From Mycoplasmataceae bacterium (lineage in GTDB: Bacteria; Bacillota_I; Bacilli_A; Mycoplasmatales; Mycoplasmoidaceae), in NCBI GenBank assembly GCA_031289655.1, contig JAITPC010000016.1, positions 1-35,395 of the forward strand: 35,395 nt of DNA, read 5' to 3'. Below are positions 3,038 to 26,182 of the stretch, in pieces. Numbering within the stretch: the first letter of the stretch is position 1; every line of letters starts with the position of its first letter. Below the pieces are notes generated by a model. That model saw nothing but the letters and a program-made list of their open reading frames with translations. It did not search any database and was not told the DNA's origin. Made by a program: the position numbers and the translations under genes.

Positions 3038-3772
3038 ATGAGTGGAAAGACTAACGCAAATGGTTTAAGAATTGGCATCAATAAAAACTGAACCTCTCGT
3101 TGATTGAACAACAATGGCAAGGAATTTGGTAAACAATTAGTCCTTGATGAAAAAATTAGAACATATTTATTAAAAGAGTTCAATGATTCTCAAATTGACA
3201 GAATTGAAATAGAGAAAAAAACTAAACTAAATAGTTTTGATAAGGAAAAAAATGATACATTAAATATTGTTATTTATTGTTGCCAAATTGGTTTAATCAA
3301 TGACGAAAAGAATCAATTAGCAACAATGTATATTCAAAAACTAGTTGGTAGAAAAATTAAAGTTAATTTAGCAGTGGTAGACTTCGGGAATCCAAATTGA
3401 TCGGCAAGAATTATTGCTAGAAAAATTGCTGATGATATTGTAAACCGTGTACCTTTTAGAGTGGCACAGAAAAATGCTATTAAAAATGTTATGGGAGCAA
3501 AAGCACTAGGCGTGAGAACACAAGTCAGTGGTAGACTTAATGGAGTGGATATGGCACGAACCGAAGGATATACTGAAGGACATGTGCCATTATCAACATT
3601 AAGAGCTGACATTGATTATGCTATGGAAAGAAGTGAAACACTGCAAGGGACAATTGGTGTTAAGGTTTGGATTAACCATGGTGAAATATTTGCCAAAGGT
3701 TTAAACAATCAAATTAAAGCACCGAAACAAGAATTTAAAAAAGAGTTTCGAAAAGAAAGAGGTCGTTCATAA
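3038..3772 (+). CDS. rpsC: 30S ribosomal protein S3
   Basis: A 244-aa S3 protein. It opens with the typical '[19 protein letters not shown]' start, has a KH-type region around residues 60-115, and the conserved C-terminal domain '[17 protein letters not shown]...[14 protein letters not shown]'. Three in-frame TGA codons fall at conserved Trp positions (code 4). S3 lies in the 30S head at the mRNA entry. The stop overlaps the rplF ATG (TAATG). It is normally followed by rplP, whereas here rplF follows directly. Confidence 0.96.
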
Positions 3773-4341
3773 TGAGCAGAAAAGGTAACAAATTAATTAA
3801 AGTCCCTGTTGGAGTAAAAGTAACGATTGGTAATAATGATATTTCTATTACCGGAAGTCTTGGAAACTTAAAAGTTAATTACCCAAGTGATATCATTAGT
3901 GTTGCATTTGAAGATGATGGAGTTAAGGTCGAAAGAAAAAATAGTGAAACAATTTCTAATATTTTTCAAGGAACTGTTGCAAGTAATTTAATGAATGCCA
4001 TACATGGTGTTAGTTTGGGATATACAAAAAAACTTAAAATTGTTGGTGTTGGATATAAGGCTGCTGTTAGTGGAGGAAAAATAGAGGTTCATGCCGGATA
4101 TAGTGGTAGTGGATCAAGAAAGTTACAAATTCCAACTGGCCTTAAGGTAACAACGCCAACGCCAGTTGAAATCATTGTTAATGGCTATGACAAACAACTA
4201 GTTGGGGAATTTACTGCTAAAATTAGAGATATCAGAAGACCAGAACCTTATAAAGGGAAAGGTATTATGTACAGTAATGAAATTATTGTTAGAAAGGTTG
4301 GTAAAACAGCTGAAGGCTCGAAAGGAGTAGTTACTAAATAG
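3772..4341 (+). CDS. rplF: 50S ribosomal protein L6
   Basis: A 189-aa L6 protein, full length. It has the two-domain L6 pattern, with 'GTVASNLMNAIHGVSLGYTKKLKIVGVGYKA' in the middle and the C-terminal signature 'GEFTAKIRDIRRPEPYKGKGI' before the final Lys-rich tail. L6 binds 23S rRNA near the sarcin-ricin loop. It is coupled to rpsC by a 1-base overlap. This junction skips rplP, rpmC, rpsQ, rplN, rplX, rplE, rpsN and rpsH. Confidence 0.96.
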   Translation: MSRKGNKLIKVPVGVKVTIGNNDISITGSLGNLKVNYPSDIISVAFEDDGVKVERKNSETISNIFQGTVASNLMNAIHGVSLGYTKKLKIVGVGYKAAVSGGKIEVHAGYSGSGSRKLQIPTGLKVTTPTPVEIIVNGYDKQLVGEFTAKIRDIRRPEPYKGKGIMYSNEIIVRKVGKTAEGSKGVVTK

Positions 4342-8134: not shown

Positions 8135-8998
8135 CTACAAATAATTATTAAACCCATTAAAATGATATTTATTGATAATATTCAGTATTTTTTGTTTATC
8201 TACGCCTTTATTGATAAAATTAAGGATCGCATAATCATTAAGTATGGTTGTATCAATTGTAGAAAGTTTTTTACACAAAAAAGCATGATCTTTATTTTCA
8301 ATAAATTTCTTTTTAATGTTCTCGCTTAATTTATCAAGATTATCATAAATATTTTCAAGGTTTCCATACTCTAGTATTAATTTACTGGCAGTTATTGGAC
8401 CAATTCCCTTAACTCCAACTAAATTATCGCTACTATCACCGCTAATACCTTTAAAATCAACAACTTGGTGCGGTTCTAAATTATTAAATACTTCTTTAAT
8501 GTTGCCAGCCGTTACCTTCAAAACATCACTAACGCCAGTTTTAAACATGTAAACATTAGTTTTTTCATTAATCAATTGTAACATATCTTTATCAGAAGAA
8601 TAAATATCTACTTCAATATTTTCATTGTTCATAATTTTACAAAATCCGCCAATAATATCATCTGCTTCAATTTGATCAATAGACAATGTTTGTATACCCA
8701 TTGCATTGATAGCTTCATTGATTAATGGCAATTGAGTTACTAATTCCTGAGGCATGGGTTTTCTCCCTGCCTTATATTCTTCTAATTCTTGATGCCTGAG
8801 TGTTTTTTTGCTTGCATCAAAAGCCACCAACGCATAATCATAACTTTGATTACTAATTATTTTTAATACAATTAACATCATCAATTTTAAAGCATTAACT
8901 GGCTGTAAATTATTGTTTTTATAGTATTCTAATTGTTTCAAGGAAGCATAATAACAACGATAAATCAATGAATTACCGTCGATAACTAAAGCTCTCAT
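8135..8998 (-). CDS. 5'-3' exonuclease (PolA N-domain type)
   Basis: A 287-aa stand-alone 5'-3' exonuclease/flap nuclease, like the N-terminal domain of DNA polymerase I, used in primer removal and repair. Acidic metal-binding motifs are all present: VIDGNSLIYR, 'FDASKKTLRHQELEEYKAGR', QIEADDIIGG, YSSDKDMLQL and 'DFKGISGDSSDNLVGVKGIGP' (the last includes the helix-hairpin-helix). No polymerase domain follows, as usual in mollicutes. I place the start at the ATG at 8998 (MRALVIDGNSL). A longer frame to 9079 would run through the divergent lipoprotein gene and adds nothing conserved. Confidence 0.92.
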   Translation of the reverse strand: MRALVIDGNSLIYRCYYASLKQLEYYKNNNLQPVNALKLMMLIVLKIISNQSYDYALVAFDASKKTLRHQELEEYKAGRKPMPQELVTQLPLINEAINAMGIQTLSIDQIEADDIIGGFCKIMNNENIEVDIYSSDKDMLQLINEKTNVYMFKTGVSDVLKVTAGNIKEVFNNLEPHQVVDFKGISGDSSDNLVGVKGIGPITASKLILEYGNLENIYDNLDKLSENIKKKFIENKDHAFLCKKLSTIDTTILNDYAILNFINKGVDKQKILNIINKYHFNGFNNYL

Positions 8999-9011
8999 TA
9001 TAATAATTATA
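8999..9011. promoter_or_regulatory. Interleaved divergent -10 boxes
   Basis: In the 14-base gap between two divergent start codons there is TATAAT on plus (8999-9004, 8 bases before ATG 9013) and TATAAT on minus (9011-9006, 7 bases before ATG 8998). Both mRNAs would be leaderless, and each promoter's upstream part lies inside the neighbouring gene. Confidence 0.6.
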
Positions 9012-9012
9012 A

Positions 9013-9471
9013 ATGTTGGGTGTGAAATTAAGTATATTAACAACCGCCCTAATTGGGGGGGGTATTGCCCTTTCAACAAATTTAACTAGTTGTACTAAAA
9101 CATCAAAGCTTTTGTTTAGCGATTTAAGAACGGGGATGGATTTAACTGGCTACACCATATTTTTTAATACTAATTTTCCGGTTAGTGACTTACCATATGG
9201 AACAGGTAGTACTAATACTTCATGTGATTATCAAATTGTCGATGAACAATCAGGCACATTTTTAGAGATTTATTATTACAAAATCGGTTATTGCATAACA
9301 ATCAGTGATGTAATATATGCAATATATGATAATGGTGCTTGAAGTAACAATACATTTAAATTTCCAACATTTACAATAACTTATCTCGTGTGTTCTCCAG
9401 ATGACGGAGACACTTTTGATCCAATTGATAAATTGCATGACATAGATGAATTAGGATATTTTTTAAAATAA
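9013..9471 (+). CDS. Lipoprotein with poly-G signal peptide
   Basis: A 152-aa predicted lipoprotein. The signal peptide is MLGVKLSILTTALIGGGIAL followed by STNLTSC, with Cys27 as the lipidation site. The three Gly codons come from a G8 tract (9055-9062). With eight G the frame is open; seven or nine would stop translation within about a dozen codons. Residues 28-152 are acidic, Tyr-rich and of no recognised family. The signal region is nearly identical in DNA to that of the lipoprotein at 25.2-26.2 kb, so the two are members of one family. It converges on plsY. Confidence 0.8.
9055..9062 (+). repeat. G8 tract in lipoprotein signal peptide
   Basis: Eight consecutive G in very AT-rich DNA, coding Gly-Gly-Gly in the hydrophobic core. 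It is in frame (ON) as assembled. Confidence 0.8.
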
Positions 9472-10432: not shown

Positions 10433-11959
10433 TTATTTAAAATATTTAATTAATTCACATATTATTAGTTCTTTCCTTGCATTATAAAAATTATTTTCAT
10501 CATTTTTTGAATATGTGATAGTAGAATTATTAGCAATCGTTGGATCAAAAGAAATTCTAGGGAGTGTACCACCAAATTGTGTTTTCATAAATACATCTAA
10601 CTCAATGTTACTTTTCCTTTTGTTGAAATAGCTATATAGTAGTTGTTTGTTATAAACGAGGTCACTACCACCTCTAGAGTATGGGTGTAAATGATCAACA
10701 TCAAATTTTAATCCGGGTAGTGCGCTGCCACATTTAGTTGCTATATATAATATTATTTTTTGAATATTTACATCCATTGTTGTGTCTACTATATTACAGA
10801 TGAAATCTTGAATATTTGTATATGTTGAAAAATGGCAGATAATTTCTAAAAAACTAGGGAGGGGCTTCTTATCAATATGTTGCCAAAAATTTTCTATCTC
10901 GTTTTGTGAATTAGCTTTCCCTACTGATACTAATAATAATAATAATAAATATTTTTCGCCGAAAGTTGGAACATTAGAATATGCTTTCTTCAAAACAAAA
11001 AACATCATTAATGCTGTACGATAATTATGAGCAACCATTTTTTTAATGTCTTCGTTATTTAAAAATTTTGTGAGATAATCTTCGAATACATTACAATTAG
11101 TTCCAATGGAAAAATAATTAACTATACTTGATAATAAAGCATTATCCGAAATAGCTTGCAAGGAGACTTTAGGAGAATGGGCTGATGATAATAAAATTGC
11201 TAAACCAATTAAAATATTTGAATTAAAAGCGAATGTTTTACCTTTAAAAAAATTTTGTACTTTTTTAGAATTAGAGACACCAACACTTCCTAGTGCATTT
11301 ATGAAAATATCGCCTGTCTGCAATGTCTTGCCTTTAGTATTAATCCTCTCAAAAATATCAATAAGCATATCAAAAGTTGTTGCATTATTCGCCCTATACC
11401 CAATAAGCAAGGCTGCATCAAATGTTGCTTTTAGCTGTGTAAATTCGTTTGGGACTATTTTACCGGGAGAATAAAAATCCGATAGGTATAAGTCATTTAC
11501 TTGTGATATTTTTTTTTTAATAGAAAATGTATATCCAAGAGTAGATGGGCTGTATGTAACACACACATTACTTATTGGGTTGAATGCAGACTTTAGGGCA
11601 GAAAGACGTTGTTGCCCATCAACTACAATATCATAGGCAGAAATAGAATTTGTGTAAAAAGATTGATTTGTAATCCTAGGACCCACACTATTTACTTTTT
11701 GCAAACCATTAGAACATACTTCGTATAAATCAGAGCCTAAAATTTGATGACCACTATAGTTTCATAACAAAATTGATGGAATTGGATAATCCTTTGCTAT
11801 TGAATCTAAAAAAGAAAAGATTCTTTTTTTATCTCAAGTAAAATTTCTTTGAAATGCAGGGATAACAAAATTGTTAGAATTATTTAAAAAATCTTTTATA
11901 TATATATATATATATGGTTTTGACGAATTGATTCCACTAATGTGATTAATTAATGCCAT
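10433..11959 (-). CDS. DUF262/HNH (GmrSD-like) restriction or defence protein
   Basis: A 508-aa protein. Residues 32-60 carry the DUF262 entry motif (FVIPAFQRNFTWDKKR...SFLDSI), residues 114-118 the DGQQR motif of the ParB/sulfiredoxin-like nucleotide-binding core, and residues 416-452 an HNH nuclease signature (FDVDHLHPYSRGG, then N...L....N.RKSN). This is the architecture of GmrS-GmrD type IV enzymes and related phage-defence proteins that cut DNA, often modified DNA. Just before the DUF262 motif the gene contains a (TA)9 tract coding YIYIYI; as assembled it is in frame. It shares a 24-base divergent promoter with a C5 methyltransferase. Target specificity is unknown. Confidence 0.85.
11897..11915 (-). 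repeat. (TA)9 dinucleotide tract in DUF262 gene
   Basis: Nineteen bases of alternating T/A near the 5' end of the DUF262 gene. On the coding strand nine TA units (18 bases) follow a CCA codon and keep the frame. Gain or loss of one unit gives a frameshift and an early stop, so it is a candidate phase switch. Confidence 0.7.
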
Positions 11960-11969
11960 TTACATATAT

Positions 11970-11977
11970 ATTATAAT
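11970..11977. promoter_or_regulatory. Palindromic bidirectional -10 (DUF262 / MTase)
   Basis: ATTATAAT gives TATAAT on both strands. The methyltransferase ATG (11984) is 6 bases to the right and the DUF262 ATG (11959) is 10 bases to the left. One symmetric element would serve, or alternate between, a nuclease and a methylase. Confidence 0.6.
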
Positions 11978-11983
11978 ATTAAA

Positions 11984-12924
11984 ATGAGTAAATTAATTGT
12001 GTGAGATCTTTTTGGGGGGGGGCTAACAGTGTCTACAATGCACTAAAAGGTAATCCTAGATATGAAATATATACTTTTGATATTACAAAACCAACAAGGA
12101 AACTACATTTTAAGTTAGATTTATCACAAAAAAATATTGTAGAAAAATTTAAAAAATATCCTAGACCAGACATTATTACTAGTAGCACATTGTGTCAATC
12201 ATTTAGTTTGGTTCTTTCTATGGTTGGGGGTGGCACACCTTTTTGGAAGTTTAACACGGATAAGAACAAGCTTCAATTAAGGACTATTAAGGAATTTGAA
12301 AAACTAAAAAGTGGCTTTACTAGATTTTTAAAGCCAGATGTACAGTTATTTCTTGCTAAATTAGGAAAAAAATGTATTGATAATACAATAAAAATAATTG
12401 ATTATTATAAACCAAAAAATTGATATATAGAAAACCCGAAAACTTCTCTTATTTGGAAATACATAAAGCTAAATAAAAAAAAGGATCATAAAAAATATTA
12501 CTTTAATCTAGCAAGTTACGGAAAATATGGTTTTATGATAAGAAAAGATACTATTTTTTTTAGTAACATTAAAATGAATTTATCTTTTGGGAAAGTTATG
12601 CCCATTTATCATATTGAATTAGAAAGTGTTAATGAAAAAGAAGCTTTGTCTAATTTAGTTAATAGAAGCAAAATATATGTAAACAAAAACGGAAAATGGT
12701 ACAAAAAATGATATGTTGCAAATGGACATACTCTAAAAGAAGGTAGAAAATTTTGTACCTTATTTGCCAAGGATGCTGGTTTGGGAAAATTGCAGAAAAT
12801 AGATGATAAATCTAAACTACAAAAAAATAAAAAGTCAACTGAACAAATTTGCGAAAGTGGCAGTGTTTCTCACATTCCAGAAAATTTAATCCGCAGTATT
12901 TTTAGTTATTTTAAAGGGAAGTAA
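11984..12924 (+). CDS. C5 cytosine DNA methyltransferase, out of frame at G9 tract
   Basis: The ATG at 11984 encodes MSKLIVWDLFGGG, a motif I (SAM-binding) start. A run of nine G (12014-12022) then shifts the frame and translation ends at 12046. One extra G (or two fewer) joins it to the long downstream frame: NSVYNALKG, FDITKP, then TLCQSFS with the catalytic Cys (codon 12193-12195), an ENP motif (WYIENPKTSLIWKYI), 'NLASYGKYGFMIRKDTIFFSNI', and C-terminal 'SVSHIPENLIRSI'. The restored protein would be 313 aa. The pattern fits the C5-MTase family, although motif IV has TLCQ rather than PPCQ. It is OFF as assembled. The HNH nuclease gene begins 1 base after its stop. Confidence 0.8.
12014..12022 (+). 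repeat. G9 tract in methyltransferase motif I
   Basis: Nine G follow TTT in codon register. The tract codes the Gly-rich SAM loop itself and is one base short of the in-frame length (10) or two bases over (7). Confidence 0.85.
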
Positions 12925-12925
12925 G

Positions 12926-14080
12926 ATGGGGTTGTTAAGAATAAATTTAGAATCTGGATCTTCAAAAGTGTATAATTTTAATGCTACACTTGATGTCTTA
13001 TATGATGATGCTTGTGGCTACTTAATTGATTGAAAAATTAAATTCCACAGTGGTGCTATTGATACTTTAACAACAGCCTCATGAGCAAACCCCAAAAATC
13101 ACCAGCATGGAGATTATAATGAACGAACTAAAATTTTAAATAACATTGGTTTGGAAAATTTAACTCGTCACAAGAAGACAGATCACAAAATTGTTGTTTT
13201 AAGTGATACCCAATTATCTTCCTTGGAAAAGTATTTTAATGGTTGTGAATATACTTCAACTATTTATAATATTTGTAAATTTTTTAAGGGGTCAAATCCA
13301 TCTGGTAGCTATATGAAACCATCAACATCAGAAATGTGAGAAAATGATAGTGGAAAAAAATATAAAATCAACATCTTTTTTCATTTTTTCTTAATTCACA
13401 ACAACTCAAGAAATCAAGGAAAAATAAATGATAATAAAGAAGAATGAGATAAAGCAAAAAATACAAAACCAGATGATATAAATTCTTATCTGCTGCTTTT
13501 TGCTTCGGTACCTTGTTGTGGCAAAGGGTCAATTAGGGAGATTTTTTTAAATTTGCAAAGAGAAAGAGATGCGACCACCACAAATTATAAAAATTTTAAG
13601 AGAAGAATAAAAGCAACAGCAGAAGAAATTTTTAAAAATGCTCAAACCGTTAATGAGGATGTAAATAAAGAAAGAAAAAAATATAATTCTAATATAAATA
13701 AATCATTTCGGAGTAATATAAAAGAGGCAGCAAATGCAATCTGGGGAAGACAATGCTCGGCACCAGATTTTCAAAAAGCACACATACTCCCTGTTTGATG
13801 GATAAAAGGAGAAATGTTTTCAAATTTTGGTAAAAAAAATTATGAATCTATAAAATCACAAATAAGTGATGTGAATAATTTCTTGCCCTTAGATGCTGTC
13901 ACACATAGTCAATATGATAAAAAATCATTGTTTTATTGGACAGATGGTGGAGTAATTCACATGTTGAAAAATTCAAGCTTCCCTTTCTTAGAAGATTATG
14001 CACAGATTCATCCAGATTATCTTTTTAAAAGAGTATATTATCTAAAAAAATACATTGAAACATTCAAGAATATTTTATAA
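12926..14080 (+). CDS. HNH-type restriction endonuclease (putative)
   Basis: A 384-aa protein with no recognisable N-terminal family. The C-terminal part is HNH-like: Cys277 and His286 in CSAPDFQKAHILPVWW, then 'NNFLPLDAVTHSQYDKK' with Asn near 318 and His327, the usual position of HNH metal and active-site residues in restriction enzymes. A Lys-rich, helical stretch (about 215-265) precedes it. It starts 1 base after the methyltransferase stop (TAAGATG), with a weak AAGGGAA in the SD position, so the two form a likely restriction-modification pair. Five or more TGA codons are read as Trp. It overlaps the convergent gene at 14075 by 6 bases. The role as the cognate nuclease is inferred from position. 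Confidence 0.7.
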
Positions 14081-19555: not shown

Positions 19556-20233
19556 TTATTTAATTACTGATTTTAAATAACGGGGGGGGGATTTACTAGA
19601 TAAAATAATCTTACCATTATTTATTTTTATATAATAATTAGCGTAATGTTTAATTTCAAATAAATCATGTGTTGAAATTAGAAATGTTGCTCCTAGTTTA
19701 TTCTTTTTTAAAACAAATTTATAGAATAACATTCGTGTTTCAAAATCTAAATTAGCAGTTGGTTCATCTAAAATAAAAAACTTGCTTTTTGATAAAAAAG
19801 TTTCCATTAGCATAATAACTTTTTTTAATCCAGAAGATAAATTATTAATTTTTAATTTAAGTTTAGTTACAGGGAAATCAAAAGTTTTACATAAATTTTG
19901 TATTTGATCAATACCCTCTTTTTTTGTTCATCCAGAATAACATGCCTGTTCCAACAAAAAATCATATATTATCATATTTGGTAACTCTTCTTTTTCCGGG
20001 CAATATGATAGAGTCGCTCTTGACTCAGAATCCATACTTGAAATGCTGTTAATCATTATATTCCCAGTGTAGGTTTTAAGCAAATTAAGAATAGATTTAA
20101 TTACAGTGGTTTTTCCAGCTCCATTTTTCCCGATAAACGCACAAATTTTATTATCAGGAACAATGAAACTTACTTCATCTAATATTTTTATTTTATTTAT
20201 AGAATAATTTATTTTTTTTACTTGTAATACCAT
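19556..20233 (-). CDS. ABC transporter ATP-binding protein
   Basis: A 225-aa ATPase. Walker A is GKNGAGKTTV (about residues 35-44), the signature is LSSGLKKV (a degenerate LSGGQ), Walker B is KFFILDEPTANLD, and the H-loop is ISTHD. It pairs with the permease whose stop overlaps its ATG (TAATG). The system resembles simple exporters (ABC-2 type). The C-terminal coding region contains a C9 tract (19582-19590), giving SPPRYLKSVIK as the tail; other lengths would change only the last residues. Confidence 0.88.
19582..19590 (-). repeat. C9 tract at 3' end of ABC ATPase gene
   Basis: Nine G on plus (C on the coding strand). With nine, the tail is SPPRYLKSVIK. With eight it stops after about two more residues; with ten it ends a few residues later. 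It lies about 30 bases from the stop of the convergent lipoprotein. Confidence 0.7.
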
Positions 20234-25200: not shown

Positions 25201-25227
25201 TTGGTAGTCTATAGTTTAGGCTACCAA
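25201..25227 (-). terminator. Inverted repeat at lipoprotein stop, possible terminator
   Basis: TTGGTAG and CTACCAA form a 7-bp stem, extended by CTA/TAG after one mismatch, and the lipoprotein stop codon lies inside it. No U-run follows, so it may be a weak terminator or an RNA-stability hairpin. It separates the lipoprotein from the ecf operon promoter. Confidence 0.35.
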
Positions 25228-26154
25228 AGTGGAATTGAATGGAAAATAAGAAAGTGATAATAATACAGAATCATCACCGAGCAATTGATTCAAAATTCAC
25301 CCATTATTCACCAAAGAATAATATTGATATTTTCAGCCAGAGGTCTCTCCACTTTCAAGGTAATCAGAATATGAATAAAAATAATCTACATATATCCATT
25401 CATATTCGTACCAATCCCAAAATCATAATGTATATTCAAAATTAGTAGGATCAGAATGGATGGATGAGAGATTAAGGTCAATTGCATAAGAATTTTCAAA
25501 ATACAACGTTACGCCATGACCATTGGCATCCATTTCAGAATATATACTATCAGATAAAAAATTCTTACTAGTGGGAAATACTAATGTTTTACTAGATATA
25601 TCGGTCCCAATGTGTATATCGCTAAGACTAGGGAAAGCATTGTTCTTAACAGCAATTTTTACAAAATCAGAAAGTAAACCATTTGTTGAACCCCAATTAT
25701 CTATACATTCCTTAAAACAATAATATTCATACTGATATGCTTCGAAATCTATTTTTAATTTACCCGTGAAAAATTCGTCCCAAGCTCACCCATTAGTTAT
25801 CATTTGTCCTCAAAAACCTTGATCACTTCACACATTAAACCATATTTCAGGTGCCTCACCATTCATCGTAATATTAAGAATAAAACAATCAGTGGTAGAT
25901 TCATCTTCGTGTGGTTCTCCAAAAATAAAACTGATTGATGTATTACTTTCCTTAAACGTTTCTTCTAGTCCATTAAGATTAAAGTATAAAGTAGAATTTT
26001 TATAATTAGTTCCTACTTCAAGTTGATCCAAATCAATCGCATTCGATGGATACCATCGTGTTTTGCCACAACTAACTAAACTTGTTGAAAGGGCAATCCC
26101 CCCCCCAATTAGAGCAATTACTAATAAACTAAATCCAATTTTTGTTTTGTTCAT
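25216..26154 (-). CDS. Phase-variable lipoprotein with aromatic-rich tail
   Basis: A 312-aa predicted lipoprotein with signal peptide MNKTKIGFSLLVIALIGGGI, then ALSTSLVSC (Cys29 lipidated). The Gly-Gly-Gly codons are a G9 tract (26098-26106), in frame as assembled. The mature part is acidic, with TGA codons throughout. Residues 239-265 (25360-25440) alternate Trp/Tyr/Phe with Asp/Glu, 15 of 27 being aromatic. A second tract of ten C lies just upstream of the -10 box, so expression can be tuned in both transcription and translation. The signal region matches the lipoprotein at 9.0 kb almost base for base. The function is unknown; it is presumably a surface antigen or adhesin. Confidence 0.82.
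26098..26106 (-). repeat. G9 tract in lipoprotein signal peptide
   Basis: Nine G on the coding strand after ATT, giving Ile-Gly-Gly-Gly-Ile. It is ON as assembled; a one-base loss leads to a stop (TAG) within about ten codons. Confidence 0.85.
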
Positions 26155-26161
26155 AACTAGA

Positions 26162-26182
26162 TTATATACACCGGGGGGGGGG
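26162..26182 (-). promoter_or_regulatory. Lipoprotein promoter with C10 spacer tract
   Basis: On the minus strand ten C (26173-26182) are followed by six to seven bases and then TATAAT (26167-26162), 6 bases before the ATG at 26154. The tract therefore sits in the -35/-10 spacer. No clear -35 is visible. Length changes would alter promoter geometry, as in the vlp and pMGA/vlhA-type promoters of other mycoplasmas, which vary by homopolymer or triplet tracts. Confidence 0.7.

Follow-up and report, generated by a model that had tools for sequence, protein, structure and literature searches.

A frame-setting poly(G) tract in the motif-I codons of a mycoplasma C5-type methyltransferase gene suggests a phase-variable operon with a MAG4270-family nuclease

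The window, that is, the whole stretch of 35,395 nucleotides analysed from the genome of a Mycoplasmataceae bacterium, carries a gene for a C5-type DNA methyltransferase (MTase) whose frame is interrupted at a run of nine guanines. It is followed by a gene for a putative restriction endonuclease and preceded by a divergent gene with a nuclease domain. The features of the locus are listed in Table 1.

Table 1. Features of the MTase locus and their positions in the window
Feature	Position	Strand	Basis or remark
Divergent GmrSD_N (DUF262) and HNH_4 gene, probable second restriction gene	10433..11959	-	Domain matches
Palindrome TATTATAATA, a candidate -10 element that the two divergent genes would share	11969..11978		Putative function
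OFF-frame product of the MTase gene, 20 aa	11984..12046	+	ATG 11984, premature stop 12044-12046
G9 tract, codons of the motif-I glycine loop, proposed switch	12014..12022	+	Recurs at this site in six relatives
Remainder of the C5-type DNA MTase, in a frame different from that of the start codon	12016..12924	+	phrog_2882; C5-MTase fold of a relative
MTase-nuclease junction TAAGATG: MTase stop (TAA 12922-12924), one base, nuclease start (ATG 12926)	12922..12928	+	
MAG4270-family putative restriction endonuclease, C-terminal HNH domain, intact frame, 384 aa	12926..14080	+	NF045952

The window uses a code in which TGA is read as tryptophan, and translation with code 4 turns split frames into full genes. 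Under this code, the frame opened by ATG 11984 reads MSKLIVWDLFGGGLTVSTMH* and ends at 12044-12046. Downstream of the ATG, TTTT stands directly 5' of exactly nine G (12014-12022), and about 300 remaining codons are open in the other frame (12016-12924), which begins GGANSVYNALKG and contains TLCQSFS and YIENP. All the coordinates that the sequence-only reading had given for the ATG, the G9 tract, the frame loss and the stop at 12046 were correct on re-reading. The long downstream frame with TLCQSFS described there is present, and the translation given is right, being valid only under the TGA = Trp code. An alternative start, GTG 12001, which opens the long frame (307 aa), was judged non-functional, as LIVWDLF of strand 1 is replaced.

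The G-run is not a product of chance, as shown by the excess of the 7-mer GGGGGGG in the window (17 overlapping matches compared with 0.41 expected from dinucleotide shuffles) and by the rarity of GGG among glycine codons. GGG accounts for 7.5% of the glycine codons in 23 window genes, and the probability of three consecutive GGG is about 4e-4. Homologues free of the tract encode the same three glycines with mixed codons, GGTGGTGGA and similar.

The long frame matched the phrog_2882 DNA methyltransferase family with an E-value of 3.5e-30, while a Pfam search of it returned no model at 1e-3. The fold was modelled with AlphaFold2 on L002, the closest in-frame relative (67% identical; pTM 0.71). 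In this model a predicted strand (residues 10-16) is followed by the glycine loop and a helix (22-27), and the Foldseek matches listed for it are C5-type MTases, namely DNMT1, M.HaeIII, M.HhaI, Dnmt2 and DNMT3; the low TM-scores result from the poor C-terminal part of the model. By way of L002, the predicted fold is that of a C5 MTase with the glycine loop of motif I after strand 1. The earlier claim that the repeat encodes this loop is borne out by the model, in which the tract corresponds to the loop that joins strand 1 to helix A. The motifs LCQSFS and ENP are invariant where PCQxFS and ENV are expected; the Cys, Gln, Phe-Ser and Glu-Asn are kept and the Pro-Cys dipeptide is not, so the MTase is a divergent C5-type enzyme. 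The DNA methyltransferases of Streptococcus and Enterococcus phages (phrog_2882) belong to the same family, with approximately 33% identity over the N-terminal 63%, but they are phage-borne, unlike the MTase of the window. Single-protein scans of genome contigs and viral contigs found no relative, and the same was true of an alignment-based scan of viral contigs. The genomes with an MTase match numbered 29 of the 149 searched, the window's own included.

The loop of every intact relative contains exactly three glycines (DLFGGGxNS). This bears on the claim that ten or seven G would restore an enzyme of 313 aa: a frame change within the run does give about 313 aa, but the frame-restoring lengths that alter the number of glycines are probably not equivalent.

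The search of relatives for the same tract revealed a G-run at the same motif-I codons in six further MTases, which makes seven in total, from two genera and with lengths of G7-G9. The run is G9 and in frame (ON) in L073/L002 and L069, G7 and out of frame (OFF) in L072, and G8 and OFF in L068, L070 and L071, the last of which belongs to another genus. The ON state in two of the seven (the window and four relatives are OFF) matches random phase (1/3). Over 3,840 bp, the R-M regions of L069 and L070 differ by a single tract base, G9 in the ON allele and G8 in the OFF allele, and the neighbouring gene is about 9% diverged. We consider this difference confined to the tract as the strongest single piece of evidence pointing to phase variation. 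Tract length decides the frame, and ON and OFF alleles are otherwise near-identical, as seen in L069 and L070 rather than in the window species. The two alleles were assembled separately. Their source runs are neighbouring (SRR7533638 and SRR7533640), so one study probably yielded both MAGs, and one of the contigs could be chimeric.

The identity between these two species-level MAGs extends over a 3.8-kb R-M block and ends inside a pyruvate:ferredoxin oxidoreductase gene. Either the R-M locus was recently exchanged through recombination, or a contig is chimeric.

Phase variation of the MTase, proposed in the sequence-only reading, is strongly supported by a tract that varies in length and state among relatives and by two assemblies that differ solely there. 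Three other explanations of the broken frame were weighed. An assembly or sequencing error in a gene that is really in frame and constant is very unlikely; homopolymers of nine are error-prone and the genome is a 572-kb draft in 43 contigs, 85% complete, but a long G-run occupies the same site in six other genomes, in three lengths, and a G-run instead of the common glycine codons is improbable. Moreover, the tract would remain the switch site even if the window copy were miscounted. The frame is indeed broken in the window genome, which could also be read as a one-base frameshift in a decaying pseudogene. We regard this as extremely unlikely, given that the roughly 300 remaining codons and the downstream nuclease are intact, that dN is 0.27 against a dS of 1.48 in the comparison with L073, and that the break falls exactly within the hypermutable tract, likewise in other OFF relatives; the OFF alleles in general keep open frames with dN well below dS. 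Finally, long G-runs can in principle favour slippage of RNA polymerase or of the ribosome, and such slippage on G9 would give a constant low level of full-length MTase, so that the tract would serve as a programmed signal for weak expression in place of an on/off switch. Slippage might also operate in addition to phase variation, but as an explanation of the tract it is highly improbable, since lengths and states are scattered among relatives, in-frame alleles included, and the repeats of sister systems are (AG)n and other dinucleotides, where such slippage is unexpected.

The gene downstream of the MTase encodes a clear member of the MAG4270 family, with a score of 184.9 bits against NF045952 (cut-off 53) over residues 13-376. 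The HNH catalytic residues H286, N318, H327 and D331 are invariant among 20 MAG4270 members, and the modelled HNH domain resembles those of VcaM4I (Z 8.7) and TagI (Z 6.7); the whole-chain Foldseek E-values for the nuclease are weak. These two best HNH matches raised the idea of a nuclease that depends on its partner's own modification mark. It was rejected, since intact nuclease genes adjoin in-frame MTases (L069, L164 and L172), beside which cutting at the partner's mark would be lethal. The position claimed for the nuclease, one base past the MTase stop, was confirmed, and in 14 loci inspected the start of the next gene falls between -13 and +6 nt relative to the MTase stop, TAATG being one such junction.

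The order of the genes was compared with the presence of the tract within the MTase clade. All seven tract-bearing MTases have the next operon gene downstream, and it is a restriction gene wherever it is readable: a MAG4270 gene in the window and in L068-L071, and a gene for a McrB-like AAA_5 protein (Pfam match) in L072. In L073 the MTase is followed by an unread gene that starts 2 nt past the stop, at the contig end. None of the nine MTases of the clade that have an HNH nuclease upstream (L074-L077, L078, L089 and L094-L096) carries a tract. The difference, 7/7 against 0/9, gives a Fisher p of 8.7e-5 with loci treated as independent though they are related; the minimum number of changes in tract state required by the tree is only two and L069 and L070 are copies, so the support from gene order really amounts to a few events.

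Simple repeats at 44 distinct MAG4270 loci lie mostly upstream of the nuclease: 25 upstream (within 1.3 kb), two inside and two downstream, with about equal lengths scanned. The nuclease sits behind C5-type MTases of three clades, many of them repeat-bearing. In the second clade (WALYDDAESS), which precedes a similar HNH nuclease, an N-terminal (AG)6-12 was found at six loci, one of them ON; several WALYDDA-type MTases precede a similar nuclease without a repeat. Members of the third clade (FEAFAGIG) have (AG), (AC), (AT) or G runs, and in L149 and L150, from two related genomes, a MAG4270 nuclease follows a FEAFAGIG-type MTase whose G8/G11 run lies in the middle of the gene. By our own tally, the ON state holds for 5 of the 25 MTases with a repeat whose state could be evaluated. 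A rule for mollicute Type II systems can be formulated from these patterns, and we give it about an even chance of holding: hypermutable repeats in the MTase gene would persist only where a translationally coupled restriction gene follows it, a single slip then silencing the two together without self-restriction, and MAG4270 would be a recurrent partner of at least three MTase clades with different repeats, one of them placed inside the codons of the SAM-binding glycine loop.

Intact nuclease genes adjoin OFF as well as ON MTases, and the neighbour is OFF in most loci. An OFF MTase beside an expressed nuclease would be lethal by Type II logic, yet OFF alleles with an intact nuclease are common, and the simplest account is that the nuclease is translationally coupled to the MTase and is probably co-silenced when coupling is lost. 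Such coupling had been suggested from the window alone, and it is supported by the conserved MTase-stop/nuclease-start junctions and by the gene-order pattern. The main rival is a phase-variable MTase with a nuclease made in both states and harmless without it, whether because it works only with the MTase as its partner, recognizes another target or is inactive. It agrees with the intact nucleases next to OFF MTases and with a candidate Shine-Dalgarno sequence of the nuclease's own, AAAGGG at 12913-12918, just 5' of the junction, where no RNA structure hiding the nuclease start was detected (z -0.30). The stop/start overlap is conserved at the junction, though, and the lack of a tract where the nuclease is upstream is expected only if nuclease expression depends on translation of the MTase, so we consider this rival rather unlikely. 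A search for an internal promoter of the nuclease gave pattern matches no more frequent than in shuffles.

We favour, as the likely reading, a slipped-strand phase-variable Type II-like R-M operon, present here in the OFF state, in which one tract switches modification and restriction together. In such an operon, replication slippage would add or remove Gs at high frequency. In the ON frame the MTase of about 313 aa would be made, and ribosomes completing it would initiate the MAG4270 nuclease, giving both methylation and restriction. In the OFF frame ribosomes would stop at the end of 20 codons, some 880 nt short of the nuclease, and little or no nuclease would be made. As a single tract would switch both functions, self-cutting would be avoided. 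The population would contain methylated cells that restrict alongside unmethylated cells that are permissive, a possible bet-hedge between phage protection and DNA uptake, and methylation-dependent gene regulation may be added to this.

The 24-bp gap between the divergent genes contains TATTATAATA. The spacing of TATAAT, 6 nt and ATG implies that the MTase mRNA may be leaderless. In the divergent GmrSD_N/HNH_4 gene, a (TA)9 repeat at 11897-11915, close to the 5' end of the coding sequence, is in frame at present and reads YIYIYI; the gene is possibly a second phase-variable restriction gene. The sole sizeable in-family homologue of the DUF262 gene aligns only from residue 248 onward.

Other repeats were noted in the window and in relatives. 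A lipoprotein gene (25216-26154, minus strand) has a module at window positions 26098-26182 that consists of a C7-C11 run directly 5' of TATAAT, 6 nt, the ATG and then a G-run coding for the glycines of the signal peptide (LIGGGIALS). Many loci of the same genome are alike, e.g., L180 and L181, and the C...G order of the module gave 43 overlapping matches compared with 0 when the order was reversed as a control. The arrangement resembles a double switch, with complementary tracts that may act on the promoter spacer and on the reading frame. A G8 at 9055-9062, in the region of 8135-9079 / 9013-9471, lies in a short lipoprotein-like ORF (MLGVKLSILTTALIGGGIALSTNLTSC), the 5' part of which overlaps a divergent gene similar to 5'-3' exonucleases; this is probably a further phase-variable lipoprotein. 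An ABC transporter ATPase gene (19556-20233, minus strand) has, within its 3' end, a G9 on the plus strand at 19582-19590 (C9 on the coding strand), which could give a variable C-terminus. In L069, a PF01555 MTase of the N6/N4 adenine- or cytosine-type (3318-4232, minus strand) stands behind the MAG4270 nuclease and has (GA)8 just before its frame; it is probably a further phase-variable MTase of that locus. L104 (3821-5982), on a contig binned as the archaeon Methanovirga, contains a mycoplasma-like MTase with a mid-gene (AG)10, out of frame, followed by a MAG4270 nuclease; the locus is either mis-binned or transferred.

A switch of this kind is already known from Mycoplasma agalactiae, where poly(G)-driven phase variation of an m5C MTase was measured: in its phase-variable CpG MTase a poly(G) of 6-11 sets the frame, most strains are OFF, and the length variation was measured by fragment analysis (PMC9465063). 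Both this enzyme and the MTase of the window are mollicute C5 MTases with a frame-setting poly(G). The M. agalactiae enzyme is of the FEAFAGIG type, 40% identical to M.SssI and M.MpeI, with the tract mid-gene, just 5' of the conserved catalytic domain (PMC9465063), whereas the MTase of the window has a DLFGGGxNS motif I with the tract inside it. The same paper cites poly(GA) for both M. pulmonis and M. crocodyli (PMC9465063). The Type III mod gene of Mycoplasma mycoides subsp. capri, MmyCI, carries (AG)12. It shares with the window system a repeat-driven frame switch in the MTase gene of a mollicute R-M system but differs in being a Type III adenine MTase with a dinucleotide repeat, and not a C5-type, Type II-like enzyme with poly(G) (PMC3498834). 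No paper naming MAG4270 was found among the openly licensed papers searched. As far as could be found, the tract inside motif I, the pattern of the MTase gene before the restriction gene and the association of MAG4270 across MTase clades are new.

Phase variation of a Type II system is puzzling, as a cell that loses the MTase but keeps the nuclease should die. A simple and testable answer to this puzzle comes from the gene-order pattern, with the MTase gene first, the restriction gene coupled to it and both under one switch. The pattern also places MAG4270, so far called only a "putative restriction endonuclease", in a functional context, and it suggests that switching of C5-type methylation together with restriction may be widespread in the uncultured gut relatives of mycoplasmas.
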